A stretch of 35,978 nucleotides of DNA, taken from a bacterium (candidate division B38) B3_B38. Its GTDB lineage: Bacteria > Acidobacteriota > B3-B38 > Guanabaribacteriales > B3-B38. Every line of letters begins with the position of its first letter. The first letter of the stretch is position 1. The position numbers were made by a program, and so were the translations under genes. This document shows positions 4,298 to 21,083 of this stretch, piece by piece. Below the pieces are notes generated by a model. It did no database searches. It was not told where the DNA came from and saw only the letters and a list, made by a program, of their open reading frames with translations. Location: contig NJBL01000019.1 in the NCBI GenBank assembly GCA_005223145.1, forward strand, positions 1 to 35,978, read 5' to 3'.

Positions 4298-5350
4298 ATG
4301 GAAAATCAGAACCTTGAGAAAACCCCTTCGGAGGCGAGGGAGGAATGGGAACAGAAGCTCGATTCCTTTCGCCAGGAATTATCCTCCCTCAAAAGCAGTA
4401 TCAGTGAGGGCTGGGAGAAGCTGGAAAATGAGCTGCGCAAACTGATAGAGGAGGTCCCTCGGCTCAAGCCAACACCTGCGGGGGTCTCCTGGGAGGAGCT
4501 GGAGAAGGTGATCGAGGAGATAGACAGAGGGAGTAAGCAATCGGAGATTCTGAATAGCCTCCTCCTGGGAGTGGGCAAATACTGCCAGCGGGTAGCCCTC
4601 TTTGTCATTTCCGGGCAGGAGGTCGTCGGCTGGTTAGCCAAAGGCTTCAGTGCTGAAGGCGTTCCCACAGGCAGAGCCAAGGTTACCCTTCCCCTGACCC
4701 AGAATAACATTTTAAACGAGGTCAATACCAGGCAATCCACCGTTATAGCCAAACCCGAAGACCAGCCGGAGAATGATCAGTTTCTGCAGAGATTAGGGGA
4801 AGCTCTCCCCAAGCAGATATTGGCTACTCCCCTGTTTGTAAGGGGAAAGGTTGCTGCCATAATCTATGCTGACCAGGGGGATTCCTTGGAAGAGATTACC
4901 ATGGTCCCCCTGGTAGAGATTATTAGTAAGGTCGCTGGCATGGCTATTGAGCTCCTCCCTCTCAGGCGGAAATTAGCCGAGGCTCCCCCGCCGCCCAAAC
5001 CACCTGAGGAAGCTAAAGAGGAAGTAGAGGAGGAAGAAAAGGAAGAGGTGGAAGTTGCTCCCTCCCCCGAGGCAATAACCGAAGAGGACCGGAAAATCCA
5101 TGAAGAAGCCCAAAGGTTTGCCCGGCTGCTGGTTTCAGAGATAAGACTCTACAATGAGGTTGAGGTCACTCTGGGGAGGAAGAACCAGGACATCTATCAG
5201 AGGCTAAAAGACGACATCGAGCGGAGCCGCGACGCCTACAATAAAAGATTCCCCACCCTGGCTTCTACGACCGACTACTTCCACGAGCAGCTGGTAAAAA
5301 TCTTAGCCGAGGGGGACGAGTCGGCTCTGGGGATACAGGAACAGGATTGA
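4298..5350 (+). CDS. GAF-like domain protein with N-terminal coiled coil and acidic linker
   Basis: GGGAGGCGAGGAATGG start; QRVALFVISGQEVVGWLAKGF...ATPLFVRGKVAAIIYAD resembles a GAF fold; Glu-rich EEAKEEVEEEEKEEVEV linker. Confidence 0.75.
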   Translation: MENQNLEKTPSEAREEWEQKLDSFRQELSSLKSSISEGWEKLENELRKLIEEVPRLKPTPAGVSWEELEKVIEEIDRGSKQSEILNSLLLGVGKYCQRVALFVISGQEVVGWLAKGFSAEGVPTGRAKVTLPLTQNNILNEVNTRQSTVIAKPEDQPENDQFLQRLGEALPKQILATPLFVRGKVAAIIYADQGDSLEEITMVPLVEIISKVAGMAIELLPLRRKLAEAPPPPKPPEEAKEEVEEEEKEEVEVAPSPEAITEEDRKIHEEAQRFARLLVSEIRLYNEVEVTLGRKNQDIYQRLKDDIERSRDAYNKRFPTLASTTDYFHEQLVKILAEGDESALGIQEQD

Positions 5351-10449: not shown

Positions 10450-13400
10450 TTAAACCCTCTTATGGGGGCAGAAGCCCTCCTCACCCCCGTAGCCGCAGCG
10501 GAGACAATCGCGCCGGGAATGAGCGGCGGTGAGTCGGAAATCCCCATCCTCAATTCGCTTGACCATCTCCCTTATGGTCTGTTCTATCAGCGGAAGCTCC
10601 TCTTCCGAGAGGTCAATCTCCACTGGGCGCCCTTGGGGAAGCAGAAAGACCTCCACCCTCAAGGGTTCTGCTCTGCGGAGCTCCTCCCCCAGACATCCAT
10701 GGCGGCAGGCAAGGAGATATATCCCCATCTGAAACCGATAGTCCTCTTTTAGCTGTGGGGTGAGTTTGGGGGTGGTCTTGTAATCGACCAGGAACCACTC
10801 CCCGTTTTGCCGATGAACCCGGTCGATAAAGCCGTTCACGGTAATCTCCGAGCTGGGAGAGAGAGTGAGCTTGAGGTTAAACTCCTGCTCCAGGAACAGA
10901 GGGGATATTTCGCTGTAAGGATGGGCGGCATAGGAGGTAAACAACACCTCCCCCCTCTCTTTTAATATACGGTTGAGCTGGGAGGTGCTTAGCCTTTCAT
11001 TAACAGCCAGCTGGCGGAAGATGTTCCTCATGAGCTTCACTTTGTCCATCCCTTTTTTCAGCGGGTACTGCCGGTGAAATTCAAAGAGGGTCTTATGAAT
11101 GAGCGTGCCGAAGCGGGTCGGGCTGAGCCCCGGCGCCTCCCATCCCTCCTCTATCACCAGCGGGTATTCTTCCCTGTACTCCAGGGTAGGGACTTTAAGC
11201 TGGTGAAGGTACTGATACTTAACGGGGCAGTGGCGGAATATGTTGAGCTGGCTGAAGCCTATCCTGACTCTGCAGGGGCTTTCTTCCAGCGGATGAGCTG
11301 GTGCTTTTCCCTGCTCCCCTTCGCTCTGCAGGGAGGCGAGGGCATTCAGGCGCTCCTTGAGCTGGCTCACCTCTTGAGGGGTCAGGGGAGAGCCCCGGTC
11401 GTCTTTTGCCGACACCGGTGGGACCCCGGCTTCTTCGGGCATCTTTAGGAGGCTCGATGGTCCTGACTCCTGCTGGCAGTAGTCTTTTAACCTCTGGAAC
11501 TCCTCCCCTGATGCGTCGGAGGTGGTGATGATGAGCAGCTCCTGTGCCCGGGTCATAGCCACATATTTTATCCTCACCTCTTCCTCCGCTTCCTTTACTC
11601 TGGGGTCCTCAATGCTGCGGTATTTATGGAATCTCTTTCTTGCCGGTCCGGTATTTACCAGCAGCCCCCACTCCGGGCTGAAGTAGAGCGGTCGATAGCG
11701 GAAGCGCCTGAGTGAGTCGCTGGTGAAGTCGCTGAGAAAGACCACCGGGAACTCCAGCCCCTTGGCCTGGTGGATGGTCATGATGGTGACCACCTCCTCT
11801 TCCAGGGGAATCTCAGTGGGGGGCTCGTCGAGGTTATGCTCCACCAGGGTGGCGATGTACTGCAGGAAAGCAGAGAGGGAGGTAAACAGCCCACTCTCCT
11901 CAAAGTCCTGGGCAAAGCGGTATAACCTCTGCAAATTGGCTAATTTTATGCGGTCGGAGAGGGAGTCCCCGCTTTTCACCAATTGAAGATAGCCGCCCTC
12001 TTCCATCACCCGGGAGACCAGAGCGGAGAGGGAGATTTCGTGCTTGACTTCTATCATGCGCCGGAGGAGCTGGCTGAAATCGGATATCTTTTTCCTGGTC
12101 TCCGGCTCGAGGGATGCTAACCACCCTTCGGTTTCCAGCAGGGCAAGGAACAGAGGCGAACCTGCGTAAAGATGCAGGTCAGCCGCCTGGCGGAGCTGGT
12201 AGAGCTCTCTGTCAGAGATCCAGAAGCAGGGGCTTTTCAGCACCGCTGCCAGGGAGAGGCTGTCGAGGGGATTATCAACCACCCTGAGAAAATTTATCAC
12301 ATCGGCTACCTCCTGGGCGTGAAGGAAGCCGCCCCCACCGATGGTTTGAAAAGGTATATCATAGCGGGCTAACACGTCCTGATAGATGCGCACCTTCTCC
12401 CCGTTCCTCATTTTCCGCAGGAGGATGGCAAAATCTCCATAATTAATAGGTTCCCCTTCTGTCCGTTGAAACCTTTTATTAGATGTCTGCAGCGGCTGTC
12501 CGAGCAGCTCTCTTATCTTTCTGGCGATGAACTCCGCTTCATCTTCGGTAGAGGAGGCGTCGAAGATTCCCAGCGTGGGTTCCCCCCCTTTCCCCAGTTG
12601 GGCTTTGAGACGCCGGGGATGGGGTTTCACTGCGGGGAGCATAAGATGGCGGGAGAGGTCAAGGATCGGCTGAAAGGAGCGATAATTGTGAGTAAGGTGG
12701 ACTTCCAGCGAGCGGGGGAACCGCTCTGTCAGGTTAGTCACCTCGGCATCCCGGAAGCCGTAGATGCTCTGATGACAATCACCCACCACCGAGACATTGG
12801 TCATACCGGGTTGTGCCAACAGCTCCAGCAGAAGAAATTGAGCCGGGTTGGTGTCCTGAAACTCATCCACCAGTATATATTGGAAACGCTTCCGACAGCG
12901 GTGGCGGTAGTCCTCATCCCGCAAAAGGTGGTAAAGTTGGAGGAGGAGGTCGGCGAAATCGAGGGCGTTCTGCCTCAGAAGCTCCTCCTGATAGCTGGCG
13001 TAAGCATCCGCCAGAAGCTCAATCAGCGTGAGCTCCAGCTCCGTCTCTTCTTCGGAATGGGAGGGGTCGGTTTGCCGGAACTGACGAGCCTTATCCACGG
13101 AGAGCTTTCGGAACTCTTCGGGGGTGAGGAGGTGGAGCTTTATCCTGCGTATAACACGAGGGAATTCGGCTATCAAGCTGCGGAGGTTGAGGTGAAAGCG
13201 CTCACGGAGGTCTCGCAGCTCAGAGAAGCGAGAGTTGACAAAAAGCCTGATGCACTGCCTCAAGAGCAGTTCCTGCTGGTTCTCCTCCAGTATGCGGAAG
13301 TTGACATCCAATCCCAGATTAAAGGGGGACTCCCGCAGCAGGCGGGCTGCCAGGGCATGGAAGGTGGAGACCCACAGCCGTTGGGGGTCCAGCCCCTCCT

Positions 13401-13641
13401 TTTCCAGGCGGCGGCTCATCTCCTCGGCGGCTTTGTTGGTGAAGGTGAGGGCTAATATCTCCTCGGGCGCGAAATGGCGGGCCAGAGCCAGGAAGCGCTG
13501 GGTCATGGTCTGGGTCTTCCCGGTGCCCGGACCAGCGGCTATGGCCAGCGGCTGGTCTATTCCGGCTTCAATAGCCCGCAGTTGGTCGCTGTCCGGGGTG
13601 AAGCTCTTCCCTCTATCTTCCATTCTTCCTGCTTTGTTCAT
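10450..13641 (-). CDS. UvrD-family helicase with C-terminal RecB-type nuclease (AdnA/AddA-like)
   Basis: AGPGTGKTQTMTQRF, STFHALAARLL, ILVDEFQDTN, TIMTIHQAKGLEFPVVFL, VAMTRAQELLII; nuclease GFIDRVHRQNGEWFLVDYKT; cysteines CPVK and CLRCGYGGEEGFC. Confidence 0.9.
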   Translation of the reverse strand: MNKAGRMEDRGKSFTPDSDQLRAIEAGIDQPLAIAAGPGTGKTQTMTQRFLALARHFAPEEILALTFTNKAAEEMSRRLEKEGLDPQRLWVSTFHALAARLLRESPFNLGLDVNFRILEENQQELLLRQCIRLFVNSRFSELRDLRERFHLNLRSLIAEFPRVIRRIKLHLLTPEEFRKLSVDKARQFRQTDPSHSEEETELELTLIELLADAYASYQEELLRQNALDFADLLLQLYHLLRDEDYRHRCRKRFQYILVDEFQDTNPAQFLLLELLAQPGMTNVSVVGDCHQSIYGFRDAEVTNLTERFPRSLEVHLTHNYRSFQPILDLSRHLMLPAVKPHPRRLKAQLGKGGEPTLGIFDASSTEDEAEFIARKIRELLGQPLQTSNKRFQRTEGEPINYGDFAILLRKMRNGEKVRIYQDVLARYDIPFQTIGGGGFLHAQEVADVINFLRVVDNPLDSLSLAAVLKSPCFWISDRELYQLRQAADLHLYAGSPLFLALLETEGWLASLEPETRKKISDFSQLLRRMIEVKHEISLSALVSRVMEEGGYLQLVKSGDSLSDRIKLANLQRLYRFAQDFEESGLFTSLSAFLQYIATLVEHNLDEPPTEIPLEEEVVTIMTIHQAKGLEFPVVFLSDFTSDSLRRFRYRPLYFSPEWGLLVNTGPARKRFHKYRSIEDPRVKEAEEEVRIKYVAMTRAQELLIITTSDASGEEFQRLKDYCQQESGPSSLLKMPEEAGVPPVSAKDDRGSPLTPQEVSQLKERLNALASLQSEGEQGKAPAHPLEESPCRVRIGFSQLNIFRHCPVKYQYLHQLKVPTLEYREEYPLVIEEGWEAPGLSPTRFGTLIHKTLFEFHRQYPLKKGMDKVKLMRNIFRQLAVNERLSTSQLNRILKERGEVLFTSYAAHPYSEISPLFLEQEFNLKLTLSPSSEITVNGFIDRVHRQNGEWFLVDYKTTPKLTPQLKEDYRFQMGIYLLACRHGCLGEELRRAEPLRVEVFLLPQGRPVEIDLSEEELPLIEQTIREMVKRIEDGDFRLTAAHSRRDCLRCGYGGEEGFCPHKRV

Positions 13642-13771
13642 TTATCGGTTCTTGGCTTTGCGAAGGGCGAAGCATTTGGGTGAAATAATTGGTGCAAAGC
13701 TCATACTATATGAAGATAGCGCATCATTTGGGTGCCCTATTAGTTTTCTTCCGCAAGCGCTTAGCCAATCA

Positions 13772-14614
13772 TTAAGATTGGAGAGTATGCTTACCGGAAC
13801 GTGAAAGGTTAGCGGGTCCCGTCACAATTACAACGATTATAGCCCAAACCATAATCAGCATACCCATTATGTTGACTATATCTCCTTGAGCAACTCTGGT
13901 TGTAAATGCAACATCTACGGAACCATGGAACAAAATTACTACCAAGACACTTCCTTTGCTACTGTTATATAGCCATGTGAGAAGAACTGCTCCGGTAACG
14001 ATGCTGAAGAGCCAACCGATAATTCCCCCTATATTCATATTTGCATAGCCTGGTCTATACCAGAACATCGGCAGATGCCAAAGAGCCCACAACACACTGA
14101 GAATAAGCGTGGCTGACAGGGCGCTGCGGCCCTTTTGAAGCCTCGGCAATGCATATCCTCTCCATCCTGCTTCCTCACCCAGTCCAAAGGTTAGTGTGTG
14201 AAATATCCAGGTGGCAATCAGCCCGAATTGGGGAAATTCCTCCGCCAATCCGAACTGGCTGAAATCTGCCCATGCATCCCCGCGGATACGGACGGCTACT
14301 GCTGCAATCACAAACAGCGCCACCGGGCCGAACAGGGCAATGAGATGTCATTTGATACTAACACGCCACCGTACAATTCGACCAAGTAATTCTCGGAGCC
14401 CCGTCTTTCCGCTACTGATTCCTGTCACGATAATCGCAGCGAGGATTGGCCCAAATGCTCCAAAAAAATGATGATATGGTAAAACTGGTATATCACGAAT
14501 ACCCAACGAAGAGAGAACCAGCGGCGTCCAGATAATCCACGAGATTCCGTTGGCCAGGATAAAGTAGGTAGCAAGCGGGTGTTTTTTCATCCAAACCGAC
14601 ATGCGTGAGCTCAT
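13772..14614 (-). pseudogene. CPBP-family intramembrane metalloprotease interrupted by in-frame TGA
   Basis: ORFs 14348..14668 and 13772..14323 lie in the same frame, separated by one TGA (14350..14348) plus 8 sense codons: ...[23 protein letters not shown]...; [14 protein letters not shown] motif downstream. Probable start MSSRMSVWMKK at 14614. Confidence 0.75.
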
Positions 14615-14639
14615 GGTGAAGCTTCCTTCACCGCCTCTG

Positions 14640-15479
14640 TCAGGTTGTCTCCTTTGGCTTGACCCCATAAACGCTTATACTTACCACCGAACGGGCAAGC
14701 TCTTTTAGTGTTTCGGCTGGAATTTTCAGAAGCTCAATGAACTCCTTGGCAGCCGGGTCGTTACTGAGGAGCTCGATGGGGAAAGATTTCTCGTCAATTA
14801 CCCTCACCTCCCGAAATCCTGCCGCTTTGATGGCACTCAGGTATTCGTCCCTCATTATGGCCCCGGAGATACAGCCGACATATGCCTCCACTGAGCTCTG
14901 TATACAATCCGGCAGCTCCTTCAACAAAACAATATCCGAGATCATTATTCTGCCGCCCGGCTTGAGCGCCCTGAACGCTTCTCTGAAGACCATTCTTTTG
15001 TCGGGCGCGAGGTTGATGACACAATTGGAGATAAGCACATCCGCAGAGTTATCAGCCACCGGGAGATGCTCAACCTCCCCCAGCCTAAACTCCACATTTT
15101 CATAGTTGCCCTTGCTGGCGTTTTCTCTTGCCTTTTCAATCATCTCGGGTGTCATGTCCACCCCGATAACTCTTCCGTTGGGACCCACTTTGTTGGCAGC
15201 GATAAAACAGTCAAATCCCGCACCCGAACCAAGGTCAAGAACGGTCTCGCCTTCGCTTAAAGATGCAAGAGCAATTGGATTTCCACAGCCAAGCCCTAAA
15301 TTTGCCCCTTCGGGAATCCCTTTGAGCTCATCCTCGGTATAGCCTAACTTTTTGCCGATATCCTGAGCTTCGTCAGTGCTTTTGCAGCAGGGATTCACAG
15401 GACCACAACAGGAGCGATTGCGTTTGGCAGTTTTGGCATAGCCTTCTCTCACAGCTTTCTTTATCTCTTCATCCTTCAT
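14640..15479 (-). CDS. arsM: arsenite S-adenosylmethionine methyltransferase
   Basis: VLDLGSGAGFDCFIAANKVGPNGRVIGVDMTPEMIEKAR, SNCVINLAPDK, EAYVGCISGA with ArsM-type Cys positions. Confidence 0.93.
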   Translation of the reverse strand: MKDEEIKKAVREGYAKTAKRNRSCCGPVNPCCKSTDEAQDIGKKLGYTEDELKGIPEGANLGLGCGNPIALASLSEGETVLDLGSGAGFDCFIAANKVGPNGRVIGVDMTPEMIEKARENASKGNYENVEFRLGEVEHLPVADNSADVLISNCVINLAPDKRMVFREAFRALKPGGRIMISDIVLLKELPDCIQSSVEAYVGCISGAIMRDEYLSAIKAAGFREVRVIDEKSFPIELLSNDPAAKEFIELLKIPAETLKELARSVVSISVYGVKPKETT

Positions 15480-15511
15480 TTTTCAGTCACCTCCATAGTT
15501 GGTTGCCCGTA

Positions 15512-15796
15512 TCACTTTCCAACTATCTCTTTCATCACGGGACCGAGGAGTTCCTTTACCATCTCCCCAAATTCTTCTGCTTTAATTAAAGAGATGCAGC
15601 ATAATTTTCCATCTTTTTCCCAGCTTACAACCGCCAACTTCTCACCCGCCCGGATGTCCGCCTTATCCCTTATCTCTTTGGGAAGCACCATCTGTCCTCG
15701 CTCATCAATGCTTATTAATGATTCAACTTTACAGCAACTCATTCTATTGTCTGAGGACCCGCAAGAAGGTTTATTCTTTTTTACCATTCTCATCAC
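15512..15796 (-). CDS. Cys-rich AbrB/MazE/SpoVT-domain protein (resembles HgcAB-associated protein family)
   Basis: SLISIDERGQMVLPKEIRDKADIRAGEKLAVVSWEKDGKLCCISLIKAEEF AbrB fold; N-terminal CGSSDNRMSCC; immediately upstream of arsM. Confidence 0.8.
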   Translation of the reverse strand: MMRMVKKNKPSCGSSDNRMSCCKVESLISIDERGQMVLPKEIRDKADIRAGEKLAVVSWEKDGKLCCISLIKAEEFGEMVKELLGPVMKEIVGK

Positions 15797-15823
15797 CCCA
15801 TCGGATAGCTTATGCTAATTATA

Positions 15824-15859
15824 CTGATTTGTCTGATAAATCAGGTTACACTGATAAAT
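15824..15859. promoter_or_regulatory. 9-bp-phased CTGAT(A/T) repeats, possible operator
   Basis: CTGATTTGT at 15824, CTGATAAAT at 15833 and 15851 (spacings of 9 and 18); 15833..15844 is also CTGAT-AA-ATCAG. Confidence 0.35.
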
Positions 15860-15938
15860 ATAGCGCATTTAATACCACATGTCAAGCGGTTTTTCAAAGT
15901 TTTCTTTTCAGCGGGCTAAAAAAATTCCATTAGCTGCG

Positions 15939-16077
15939 GCATATCGCTTCATAGGGGCAACCCCAGTATCCCTGGCAGGTATCTGGCGCTGCTGAGGAGG
16001 GGCGGGCGGGGAAATAGCCCTGTTTGATACGGGAACAGCATTCCACAATGGTGGCTTCCACCTGCTGAAGCTCATCC
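15939..16077 (-). repeat. Direct repeat copy A: relic/duplicate of the helicase 3' coding end
   Basis: Matches 17619..17757 at constant offset 1680 without indels; 5 mismatches in core 15950..16077; encodes DELQQVEATIVECCSRIKQGYFPARPSSAAPDTCQGYWGCPY then EAICRS*. Confidence 0.95.
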
Positions 16078-16132
16078 TTATGTCCTCCATTCCTCTCCCC
16101 TTTTTTATCTGTCGTTTTGTTCATATCAGAAG

Positions 16133-16146
16133 TCCAGACGTCTGGA
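16133..16146. repeat. 14-bp perfect palindrome TCCAGACGTCTGGA
   Basis: TCCAGAC/GTCTGGA read directly, between copy A and the YaaA-like gene. Confidence 0.9.
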
Positions 16147-16152
16147 TATTTT

Positions 16153-16181
16153 TTAGCTAAGTTCCGAAGTAACCTAGCTAA
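16153..16181. repeat. Imperfect inverted repeat (10/11 arm matches, 7-nt loop)
   Basis: TTAGCTAAGTT-ccgaagt-AACCTAGCTAA; each arm contains TAGCTA. Confidence 0.8.
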
Positions 16182-16219
16182 ATATAATATGTTATACTAA
16201 ATTGGCAAAGGTGCGTTTT

Positions 16220-17023
16220 CTATTCAAAGTGGTTAATAACTCCCACATCTTGACGGTTAAAAGGAATTGTATAGAAATTATTCTGGATAAAATTGGACTT
16301 GATGAAAGAGACGATGAGCTTGCCTAATGTTTCTGGCACGATACGCAGAGCTCCACCTTTACTTTGAAAATTGATATAGTAAGTTCTTGCCACTTTTAAG
16401 CTTGTGTTTTCTTTCAATTTTAGCCAACTTATGCTCTTCATAATCTTTATATAATCTGATGTACGGGCGAAAAAGCCATAGATATTAGTAATTTTGTTTC
16501 TATCAATATATTCTTCTATTATTTTAGTTAGACAGTGCTTTTTCCAATATTTAGCATTCATCAGCTTCCTATAGTAATGTATCCTTTCGCTAGGCGTTAA
16601 AATTCCATAGGCTCCTGACATTATTAGTATATGAATATCTTTTCTAAAATAGACTTCTCTTACAGATTCTCTGAAACTATCAACGCTATAAAGAGATCCA
16701 TTGTATCTGTCCAAAGCAGCAATAAGTCCCGAATTTTTATCAATATAATATGCCATTCCTTTTCTTCCATTTAGGAGGTAATCTTTTGTGTTTACAATAT
16801 AATCGATGACTTTTCTTTCTTCAGCTTCTTTAAAAGTTTCATAAATGTCTTTTTTTTGTTTTTTTGCCGAATATGGAAATATTATTAAGACCTTTTTTCC
16901 TCGTAACTTAGTGGATGTTAATGGTTTTCCAATGTCTTTTAATTCTTTTGTGACAATAGGCTTAGGTTTTCTATGAATGAGAGACCTTTGTAAAAAGAAG
17001 AATAAGTTATTTTTGTTTGACAT
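16220..17023 (-). CDS. YaaA/DUF6884-like protein (tentative)
   Basis: KVLIIFPYSAKKQ... and ILIMSGAYGILTPSERIHYYRKLMNAKYWKKHCLTKIIEEYI resembles YaaA-type motifs; AT-rich gene with RBS. Confidence 0.6.
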   Translation of the reverse strand: MSNKNNLFFFLQRSLIHRKPKPIVTKELKDIGKPLTSTKLRGKKVLIIFPYSAKKQKKDIYETFKEAEERKVIDYIVNTKDYLLNGRKGMAYYIDKNSGLIAALDRYNGSLYSVDSFRESVREVYFRKDIHILIMSGAYGILTPSERIHYYRKLMNAKYWKKHCLTKIIEEYIDRNKITNIYGFFARTSDYIKIMKSISWLKLKENTSLKVARTYYINFQSKGGALRIVPETLGKLIVSFIKSNFIQNNFYTIPFNRQDVGVINHFE

Positions 17024-17150
17024 CTTCGCTCTCCTTTTTTATCCTTTTATTTCTTAGCTTCTCCAAGCCTCTTGCATATAAGGTGCTGAGATTATCTGAA
17101 ATCGGCTGATCGACAGCAAGTCTAGATAAGCTCTGTTAGGCGAAATTCCT

Positions 17151-17576
17151 TTATTTTCCTGTCCGGTTGTACTTTGGCAAATACTCATATATCAGTAAAG
17201 TTTCCACCAATGAAACAATATTTTTATCTTTTCCTTCAAATGATATAAAAGAAAAAACAAAATTGTCTTTAATAAAGGATTTGGATTCATCTCTTAAATT
17301 AAGACCGTACTCTTCAGCAATTTGTTTTCTAAATACACTTTTTGTGTAATTGTCTGATAAATGTTGGCGCATGATTCTTTGGTATAATCCCCTTCTTCCT
17401 AATGCGCGTCCTACATATACTATTTTATTGTTTCTCTTCGAGCGCCATAGATAAACACCAATTTTTTTAGGCACGGTATTTAATTCTATATTCTTAGGGT
17501 CATGATTTTCTGCTTTTACAAGTTTTTCAGAATATATAAGTGCATCTTTTAATTGTCTTTTAATTTTTTCAAACAT
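17151..17576 (-). CDS. GIY-YIG nuclease domain protein
   Basis: IGVYLWRSKRNNKIVYVGRALGRRGLYQRI...SLVETLLIYEYLPKYN: GVY..VYVG core, Arg, Glu and terminal PKYN typical of the family. Confidence 0.8.
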   Translation of the reverse strand: MFEKIKRQLKDALIYSEKLVKAENHDPKNIELNTVPKKIGVYLWRSKRNNKIVYVGRALGRRGLYQRIMRQHLSDNYTKSVFRKQIAEEYGLNLRDESKSFIKDNFVFSFISFEGKDKNIVSLVETLLIYEYLPKYNRTGK

Positions 17577-17609
17577 ATTTCATCCCCAACTAATAATATA
17601 GAATGCAGT

Positions 17610-20600
17610 TTATCTATTGCATATATTGGCATAGGGGCAACCCCAGTATCCCTGGCAGGTATCTGGCGCTGCTGAGGAGGGGCGGGCGGGGAAGTAGCCC
17701 TGTTTGATGCGGGAGCAGCATTCCACAATGGTAGCTTCCACCTGTTGAAGCTCATCCCCTGAGAGGCAATAGTAGTCTTCCTCATCGGTGGAGAAGCCGG
17801 GAAAGCAGAGCACTGCTGTGGACCATTTTATTCTTCCCTCTTTATCCTGGGCGAAGTATTGGAGATAGTATCCCGCCTGCCGGTCGAGCTTCAACCCTCC
17901 TGCGGTCACGCCCTCCCGGACAGCCAGCCAGGCTAAAACCGGGTGGAGGCGGAGCGGAGGCTGCTCCCTCCCCTGGCGGGTGACTGAGCTCAACATCCCC
18001 CGGGCCAGATTTTTGGCTTCGGTAGATTTTGTCTGGCGTTTTCGGAGGGCATGGTTCAGGATTATCACCCTCCCGTTGTCGTCCATCATCACCCCGTCCA
18101 CCCTCACTCTGAAAGGATAGCCCTGGTACTGGAATGCGAAGGTATCCCGGGATGCCAGGCAAGGAAGGTGAAGATGGGGGAGAAAGACCTCCTCCACATA
18201 GGAATTGATAATCTCCTTTATCTCGGCTTCGGTATATGTCATCGGGTCGGGCAGAGGGAGGGAGCGCTCCTCCAATGCTTGACGCCACAGCTCGTCTATC
18301 AGGGAGCCGAGCCTCTCCGTCCTGCGGGTGGCGGGGGCTTTTCGCAGAGACTCCCTCATATAGGGGATGTTGAGGAGGTTTATCACCTGCTTGACCACTC
18401 CCCGCCAGGCTCGCTGAGGGTCTGCGGGGGAGGTGATGTTCAAGATGGCGGAGTAGAGGGCTTTACGGGGGCAGGTAAGGTAGCTCTCCAGCATCCAGGT
18501 GCTGAAGGTGAACTCTTCCTGCTGTAGGGGTAGGGGCTCTTCTTTTGGGGAGATAGAAAGAGGGCGGGCATCCGACAATAGCTCATCTATGCCGGACACT
18601 GACCCCACCCAGAGCCCCTCACTCTGGGAAGGCTCCAATCGCTTCGCCAACTGAGCGAGCTCCTCCACCATCTCCCGTTTGAGCGGCGTCTTTTTCGAGA
18701 GGAGGTAGTGCGCGAGGTCCGATAGGGAGAGGACTTCGCCGATGCCAGTGACCTCCCTTGTCTGGCTGATGGCGGTGTTCCGCAGGAAGCCAAGCCCCGA
18801 CTTGTGGCAGCTCTCCTCATCAAGGGGGAGGTTGTTGTTCAGCAGGTGCAGGAAGCGGGAGGGGAGAAGGGGGAACAGGGTGCTCTTCTGAGAGTAGGTA
18901 AGATAGACCATTTGTTGGGCTTTGGTCATTCCCGCCCGCAGGAGTCGGCGCTCTTCCCGGTAGTGTTCATCATCGCTGCGAGGATAAGGGTGGTAGAAAT
19001 TGGGATATAGCTTTTTCATCCTCTCTAATTCGTCGGCGGTGAGCAACTCATCCCCTCGGAGGCGAAGGGGGAAACTCTCCTCCAATAAACCCGGGATGAA
19101 GATGACGGGGAACTGCCTCCCTTTTGTCTGGTGGATGGTCATCACCCTCACCCCTTCCTCCTCTTTTTCGGGCCGGTCCATGGAGGCTTCGGAGGCGAAG
19201 TGGCTTACCAGCTCGTCAATCTGGGAGATGAGTTCCTTAAATGTTGGCGGCTTCCCCTGGAGGGCGGTGAACACTTCGGTGAACTCCTGCACCATGGTGG
19301 TGAAGTGACGCAGGTGCCGCAGGGAATCACTTGCAGTGGTGGAAGGCGCCACATCCTTGGTGGCGGAGCCAACCAGGTAGGCCAGCAGCCCGCTGTGGTT
19401 CAAAATGCGGTGTATCAGTGTGGGCAGTGGCAGGGTGTCTTTCTCCCTTTCCAGCAGAAGAAAAGAGCGCATAAAGCGGAACAATTGTTGGAAGAATTCC
19501 CCATAGGATTCATCCTCCTCCAGGCGGCTTAATATCGGGGGGCGGGGGACAGGTGGGGTTTGGCTTATGTGGGTCTCCTTTAAGGGAAACAGGTCGGGAT
19601 AATCGGTGGTCAGCCACCAAGTTAACCCCTTGATGTAGTGGAACAGGCTCTCTCCATCCCTCCCCCGGGAGGCTTCCAGCCGGTGGAGCATCTGCGGTTG
19701 GAGGGCTGAAGCAGGGGAGTGGAGGACGCGTCTGAAATGCTCCCCCTCATCGGGTGAGGCGAGAGCTTTTAGATAGGAAATGAGGAAGCTCACCCCTTTG
19801 TCCTTATGAAAGGTGCTGCCCCCCATTATCTGATAGGGGATATGATGATAGCCGAGGGCTTCCTCCAGCGGCTTTGCCAGGGGGGAGAGGCGGCGGAGCA
19901 GAACGGCAAAGTCGCTATAGCGATACCCAGCAACACCCTGCTGGTTGCTCCCCTCGAGGAGTAGTCTTTTTATCTGGCGGGCGATGAAGAACGCCTCGTC
20001 AATAGGGGTTGGCTCGGCAGCCACGAAAACCGCATTTCCCGGCGGAGTGTCATGCGCTCCAGAGTTCGCCCTCTTCTCCAGGCGCTCCACTATCTGGAGG
20101 AGCTCGGGGTGACAGCGGTAGGACCGGGATAAGGTTATCACCTTAGCTCGGGAATAACACTTGAGGAAGCGGGGCTTCTCCCCGTTGATAGAGGCAATGT
20201 GTGAAGGGTCGCTTCCTCGGAATTTGAAGATGGCTTGCTCCGGGTCACCTGCCACACAGATGCAAGGGCTCTCGTTCTCCCGGGTCAACAAAGTAAGGAG
20301 ATGGAACTGAGCGGGGTCAACCTCCTGAAACTCATCGACGATAATGTAGCCAAATCTCTCCTGATAGCCCCGGCGGATTTCGGGATGTTCTTCCAGCAGC
20401 CTCACTGTTCTCCGCACCAGGTCTGGAAAGGCGAGGTAGCCGCTCTCTTCCATTTCCTTCTGAAGGGCTGAGTAAAGGCCTGCGAGGTCGGTGAGCTTGC
20501 GCTTCAGCGATACTTCCCCGGGAGTGGAGGGAGAGAAGTGGCTCACCATTTGCTGAAAATCGGCGGAGTCTATGAGGTTCTGCTTGAGTAATCGGATAAA

Positions 20601-21083
20601 CTCCCGCAGCTTGAGGGCAAAGCCCGCCTTCTCGGTCACTCCTCTCAGATAGCTTGTCAGCCCGAGAGAGGGGAGATTTCTCTTAAGAAACTGATGGACA
20701 AAAAGCCATTCCTCAAAGTCGCTGAGGATATGCAGATGAGCGGGGACCCCCGCCGCAAGGCTGTTCTCTCTGAGGAGCCTCCGGCAAAAGCCGTGAAAGG
20801 TGAAAATCCACAGCTCATCGTAGCTCTCGGTTAAATACTCATCCACCTTCTCCCGCCACTGCTCTGCCATCCTTGAGGAGAAGGTCAGTCCCAGAATGTT
20901 TCTACGAGGGACTTGCTTCTGGGTGAGCAGATAGGGTATCAGCAGGGTGAGGGTGCGGGTCTTGCCCGTGCCCGGTCCTCCTATTATCATCTGGGGTCCG
21001 TCAAATTCAACAATTGCCCGTCGCTGCACCTCATCGAGAGTGCTGAAATCCCGCTCCCACCTGGTAGAATTTAGCTTAGCCAT
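17610..21083 (-). CDS. UvrD-family helicase with degenerate C-terminal RecB-type domain and Fe-S cysteines (AdnB/AddB-like)
   Basis: GGPGTGKTRTLTL, FTFHGFCRRLL, IIVDEFQEVDPAQF, VMTIHQTKGRQFPVIFI; CPRK and CQGYWGCPYANIC cysteines; nuclease motif region VRVDGVMMDDNGRVIILNHAL lacks the D..K signature. Confidence 0.88.
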   Translation of the reverse strand: MAKLNSTRWERDFSTLDEVQRRAIVEFDGPQMIIGGPGTGKTRTLTLLIPYLLTQKQVPRRNILGLTFSSRMAEQWREKVDEYLTESYDELWIFTFHGFCRRLLRENSLAAGVPAHLHILSDFEEWLFVHQFLKRNLPSLGLTSYLRGVTEKAGFALKLREFIRLLKQNLIDSADFQQMVSHFSPSTPGEVSLKRKLTDLAGLYSALQKEMEESGYLAFPDLVRRTVRLLEEHPEIRRGYQERFGYIIVDEFQEVDPAQFHLLTLLTRENESPCICVAGDPEQAIFKFRGSDPSHIASINGEKPRFLKCYSRAKVITLSRSYRCHPELLQIVERLEKRANSGAHDTPPGNAVFVAAEPTPIDEAFFIARQIKRLLLEGSNQQGVAGYRYSDFAVLLRRLSPLAKPLEEALGYHHIPYQIMGGSTFHKDKGVSFLISYLKALASPDEGEHFRRVLHSPASALQPQMLHRLEASRGRDGESLFHYIKGLTWWLTTDYPDLFPLKETHISQTPPVPRPPILSRLEEDESYGEFFQQLFRFMRSFLLLEREKDTLPLPTLIHRILNHSGLLAYLVGSATKDVAPSTTASDSLRHLRHFTTMVQEFTEVFTALQGKPPTFKELISQIDELVSHFASEASMDRPEKEEEGVRVMTIHQTKGRQFPVIFIPGLLEESFPLRLRGDELLTADELERMKKLYPNFYHPYPRSDDEHYREERRLLRAGMTKAQQMVYLTYSQKSTLFPLLPSRFLHLLNNNLPLDEESCHKSGLGFLRNTAISQTREVTGIGEVLSLSDLAHYLLSKKTPLKREMVEELAQLAKRLEPSQSEGLWVGSVSGIDELLSDARPLSISPKEEPLPLQQEEFTFSTWMLESYLTCPRKALYSAILNITSPADPQRAWRGVVKQVINLLNIPYMRESLRKAPATRRTERLGSLIDELWRQALEERSLPLPDPMTYTEAEIKEIINSYVEEVFLPHLHLPCLASRDTFAFQYQGYPFRVRVDGVMMDDNGRVIILNHALRKRQTKSTEAKNLARGMLSSVTRQGREQPPLRLHPVLAWLAVREGVTAGGLKLDRQAGYYLQYFAQDKEGRIKWSTAVLCFPGFSTDEEDYYCLSGDELQQVEATIVECCSRIKQGYFPARPSSAAPDTCQGYWGCPYANICNR
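17619..17757 (-). repeat. Direct repeat copy B: 3' end of the intact helicase gene
   Basis: See copy A (15939..16077). Confidence 0.95.

Follow-up and report, generated by a model that had tools for sequence, protein, structure and literature searches.

The locus raises the question of why the 3′ end of a single gene should be present twice in a bacterial chromosome, on either side of a stretch of foreign-looking DNA and with silent differences between the copies. In the window (the whole stretch of DNA analyzed here, 35,978 nt of a contig from the candidate division B38 bacterium B3_B38), the gene concerned encodes, by Pfam and translation, a 1157-aa UvrD-type helicase with a C-terminal PD-(D/E)XK nuclease domain (17610–21083, minus strand; Pfam UvrD-helicase, 7.6e-55; UvrD_C, 4.9e-30; PDDEXK_1, 5.7e-11). 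Its C-terminus is a cysteine motif, CQGYWGCPYANIC, of the AddB/Cas4 Fe-S kind; these terminal cysteines we take to be Fe-S ligands, from general knowledge of AddB/Cas4-type nucleases.

Sequence comparison places one copy of a 128-bp repeat in frame within this gene (copy B, 17630–17757, minus strand), followed by a tail that differs from the native one: ANICNR* (17610–17629, minus strand; 26% GC), where the asterisk is a stop codon. The other copy (copy A, 15950–16077, minus strand) is, by the repeat itself and by comparison with a congener, the displaced native 3′ end of the gene with its frame intact, and continues into the native tail and stop EAICRS* (15930–15949, minus strand; EAMCRS* in the congener, G001). 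Along one orientation the order is the 5′ part of the host gene, copy B, an endonuclease ORF, and the native end (copy A plus EAICRS*), which is stranded 1.7 kb downstream of the present end of the gene. Both copies stop at an aligned TAA.

The copies are 96% alike, and theirs is the sole long repeat of its kind within the window; another repeat (65 nt, 74%) was considered as comparable and rejected, being homology between helicase motifs. A recount over the 128 bp confirmed the five mismatches of the original prediction (16014/17694, 16029/17709, 16035/17715, 16053/17733, and 16065/17745; codon pairs TAT/TAC, CGT/CGC, TGT/TGC, GCC/GCT, and CAG/CAA), all of them synonymous and at the third codon position when read in frame with 17610–21083. 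All are also transitions. They are all in the first 64 bp of the repeat, and its last 64 bp show none (one-sided P about 0.03, two-sided about 0.06). The last codons, CPYEAICRS* in copy A and CPYANICNR* in copy B, do differ non-synonymously as predicted, but to speak of a few differing codons understates the case: next to the 64 identical bases the tails disagree at 9 of 19 positions, and the replacement tail has the GC content of the cassette (26%, with 32% in the cassette, 53% in the native tail, and 60% in the repeat). This makes copy B a composite of 64 bases shared exactly with A and an AT-rich tail.

Which end is native can be judged from relatives. At E ≤ 1e-60, host-gene orthologs within the phylum were found only in G001 and in G008, a relative of the same order; one match among genome contigs was G001 itself. 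G001 is without the insert at the corresponding place, and its gene ends in CPYEAMCRS*, like copy A; in G008 the end is CPYEKMCWE*. The first tail residue is E in both and A (alanine) in copy B. Since the tail of A is like that of the cassette-free G001, with G008 agreeing, and ANICNR* is found in B only, in AT-rich DNA, the native end, now displaced, appears to be copy A, and the incoming one, now fused to the gene, copy B, or at the least its last codons. The five silent sites are mixed: G001 has the base of A at three (CAG, GCC, TGT) and the third base of B at two (those of CGC and TAC), in codons that have also changed otherwise in G001 (CTC, TCC). A mixture of this kind in a cassette-free relative had been put forward as a sign of drift in place, but it neither refutes nor proves import, since the outgroup is at about twice the A–B distance and a mix is expected under either history. 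With one close relative to compare, then, the tail groups A with G001 and G008, and the silent sites divide 3 to 2. The polarity of the tail marks B as incoming, in keeping with the earlier proposal that the cassette brought its own 3′ end; the other half of that proposal, a donor in a related genome, we infer.

The replacement tail keeps both Ile-Cys and the stop in register with the native tail, so that the gene retains its frame and its last cysteine. In random cassette-like sequence a Cys would be in register by chance in 2.3% of cases, and Ile or Met followed by Cys in 0.3%; the tail therefore looks either homologous or selected.

The insert between the copies (16078–17629, minus strand) has 32% GC where the host gene has 57%, and its composition and its absence from relatives suggest a foreign two-gene cassette. 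The first gene (P0002; 17151–17576, minus strand) encodes a 141-aa single-domain GIY-YIG nuclease (Pfam GIY-YIG, 3.2e-07, above the cut-off), which retains the fold's GVY, YVG, Arg, Glu, and Asn positions. It consists of a catalytic domain only, with no recognizable DNA-binding part, and its best leads among solved structures and in a defense library are restriction-like (Eco29kI, weak). The second (P0003; 16220–17023, minus strand) encodes a protein of 267 aa, part of which is a YaaA (DUF328, PF03883) segment; its Pfam H2O2_YaaD match (3.1e-07; 30.6 bits, with the cut-off at 29.6) covers residues 58–167 only, and it is also weakly DUF6884-like. Single-sequence structure models were poor for both (pLDDT 41 for P0002, 31 for P0003). 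The three other genomes of the order compared have no match to either protein. The YaaA match is the sole one among the genomes of the order compared, and the source genome has one other GIY-YIG match, in a frame of 601 aa, a length that suits UvrC. No close relatives of either were found in the phages, plasmids, viral contigs, and genome contigs searched. Distant GIY-YIG relatives on a Curtobacterium plasmid and in genome G097 were considered as sister cassettes and rejected, neither being flanked by a gene-end repeat; the repeats in G097 are on one side of its GIY-YIG gene. A search of the insert for known RNAs (intron, IStron) found none.

Several small features are found where the cassette meets copy A. 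A perfect 14-bp palindrome, TCCAGACGTCTGGA, is at 16132–16145, between the YaaA-like gene and copy A, and beside it (about 16154–16183) is a TTAGCTA...TAGCTAA hairpin with a TTCG loop. The stretch just before copy A (16078–16110) repeats the ribosome-site-like GATAAAAAAGG(A/G)GAG that is found ahead of the YaaA-like gene (17024–17050); near copy A it is followed by ATG GAG GAC ATA A, which copy A interrupts. To judge by these letters, a third cassette gene may have begun with this stretch and its ATG and been truncated at the junction. Simple misassembly at the repeat was considered and rejected, the cassette–A junction (16077/16078) not being within a repeat; a mixture of strains in the metagenome assembly may have produced the arrangement.

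The surroundings also differ from those in relatives. A second helicase, similar in kind, begins about 50 bp past the host-gene ortholog in G008 and about 0.5 kb downstream of it in G001; in the window it is at 10450–13641, and the pair has been driven apart by the cassette together with a second block of genes. This block (13650–15949), between the native end A and the second helicase, has arsenite-methyltransferase-like, AbrB/MazE-like, and Rce1-like CAAX-protease genes, which had no match in the three relatives compared. The junction between the two helicases looks like a repeated insertion spot. The gap between them in G001 (L010, about 4727–5200) spans about 0.5 kb and shows no gene that is clearly intact; a frame within it, EVGFEVKQMKLEHSIFAKGEYLPLLVCIKP, is by eye like a methyltransferase C-terminus, without a match to the methyltransferase of the window.

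The silent pattern invites a calculation, and the chance of 1/243 originally quoted for it used the wrong null, supposing both copies free to change. A fair null for in-place duplication has copy A dead and copy B constrained, omega for the host gene being taken from the comparison with G001 (dN 0.084 and dS 0.335 for the gene as a whole; about 0.17 for the codons of the repeat). The probability that all five changes are silent is then about 0.005–0.011 for an A that was dead all along (as much as 0.03 when transitions alone are allowed) and 0.015–0.045 for one dead half the time; it is 0.0006–0.004 if both copies were neutral and 0.06–0.3 if both were constrained at an omega of 0.1–0.25. The likelihood ratio of two constrained ends to a dead A is about 10–35, from only five events and for a pattern noticed post hoc. 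The A–B divergence is dS 0.20 and dN 0, and that of either copy from G001 dS 0.36–0.42, which would put the A–B split at roughly half the age of the species split from G001. Because the divergence is all silent and the ratio favors constraint, both copies were probably constrained gene ends during most of their divergence, and a dead copy is disfavored; the proposal that they diverged while both were functional is upheld to this extent, on five events.

An arrangement of this kind is already known from fungal mitochondria, where mobile ORFs carry a foreign C-terminus (Allomyces atp6; Glomus atp6, atp9, cox2, and nad3; PMC3630166). Four Glomus genes have the order gene body, inserted C-terminus, endonuclease ORF (GIY-YIG in atp9), and native C-terminus (PMC3630166), which is the order of the bacterial locus too. 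In these the fused end is foreign and the displaced native end clusters with relatives; in atp6 the changes relative to a relative are all synonymous, and the copies are 63.5% alike (PMC3630166). The bacterial locus differs in being chromosomal, in having a second, YaaA-like gene, and in the closer likeness of its copies (96%), and is known here from sequence. In Endoconidiophora mitochondria, partial C-terminal duplications with GIY-YIG/LAGLIDADG ORFs are found downstream of cob and atp6 (PMC6279837); there as here the C-terminal duplicate is set apart from the gene by endonuclease ORFs, but the system is mitochondrial and its ORFs are degenerate (PMC6279837).

By this analogy, we give an even chance to the reading that the AT-rich cassette with its replacement gene end is a bacterial look-alike of the fungal mobile ORFs, the arrival of B and the mobility being what we infer. 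A foreign AT-rich two-gene cassette would have inserted into the helicase-nuclease gene at its 3′ end, and the last codons of the gene would have been exchanged for an equivalent end adjoining the cassette (B plus ANICNR*), leaving A plus EAICRS* behind. The B end may have come along with the cassette from a lineage near the host. If the mitochondrial parallel extends to donor, cutting, and mobility, the GIY-YIG nuclease would once have cut cassette-free gene ends, and homologous repair would have copied the cassette in together with its own end. Since the gene stays usable, such an insertion would be harmless. Several findings count against this explanation: no B-type gene end or second copy of the cassette was found in the phage, plasmid, viral-contig, and genome-contig collections searched; P0002 is a lone domain with restriction-like leads, and the YaaA-like gene has no explained role; a composite B is not simply explained by one close donor; and two of the five silent sites polarize to the A side. 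A more ambitious version, in which a selfish chromosomal cassette homes into the 3′ end of a repair helicase-nuclease gene and B is recoded and cut-resistant, with the silent changes as the mark of resistance, strikes us as improbable.

The main rival is an insertion with a long target duplication, in which A and B would have been identical initially and drifted in place, a pattern described for Helicobacter restriction-modification genes (Nobusato et al., 2000, as cited in PMC1643837). As far as they are presented there, those insertions share with this one a nuclease-gene insert, long direct target repeats, and an empty site in a relative, but here the copies are not identical, their differences are all silent, one tail is replaced, and the cassette has no methyltransferase (none was found between the repeats, which thus do not enclose a restriction-modification gene pair). 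The weak likeness of P0002 to Eco29kI-type enzymes suits this rival, as do the identity of the last 64 bp, the silent sites polarizing in both directions, and a tail of cassette-like GC (26%) next to 128 bp of host-like GC (60%), as expected with a border exactly at CCCTATG. Against it, five silent changes of five would be rare were A unselected (about 0.005–0.011, as above), and the supplied tail has a cysteine and a stop in register (2.3% for the Cys alone). This route, or later conversion between A and B, accounts better for an AT-rich tail next to 64 identical bases, and import accounts better for the silent pattern. On balance we regard a long target duplication as rather unlikely.

The composite B would also be accounted for if the insert were the remnant of a site-specific integrating element whose att site held the 3′ end of the gene, with B and A as the attL and attR left by a crossover in the identical segment. 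Integration at the 3′ end of a gene typically restores that end and leaves repeats that have a boundary on either side, and integrative elements that duplicate att sites in this way share with this locus the direct repeat of the gene end and the restored gene. However, the cassette has two genes only, which match GIY-YIG and YaaA; no tyrosine or serine integrase or recombinase was found in the insert, and the neighboring ORFs are methyltransferase, AbrB/MazE-like, and CAAX-protease-like, so that we hold this origin to be a long shot. Lastly, both copies could be under selection after a local duplication if A were still used, as part of a 64-aa open frame (15930–16124, minus strand) in which 16 cassette-side codons are joined in frame to copy A. 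The frame has an in-frame ATG and all its cysteines are intact, but it has no clear ribosome-binding site, the frames would match by chance about one time in three, and we know of no use for a bare Fe-S end; the frame may be accidental, and its use seems to us very improbable.

The likeness to the fungal mobile ORFs is drawn from one instance in a bacterial chromosome. The arrangement does have a signature that can be searched for in genomes: a direct repeat of a gene end with silent differences, a replaced tail, and an AT-rich nuclease ORF between the copies. If the preferred reading is true, the strategy of fungal mitochondrial elements, in which an endonuclease gene brings along a spare 3′ end for the gene it invades, would also be found in bacterial chromosomes, and in this bacterium it would affect a gene for DNA break repair.
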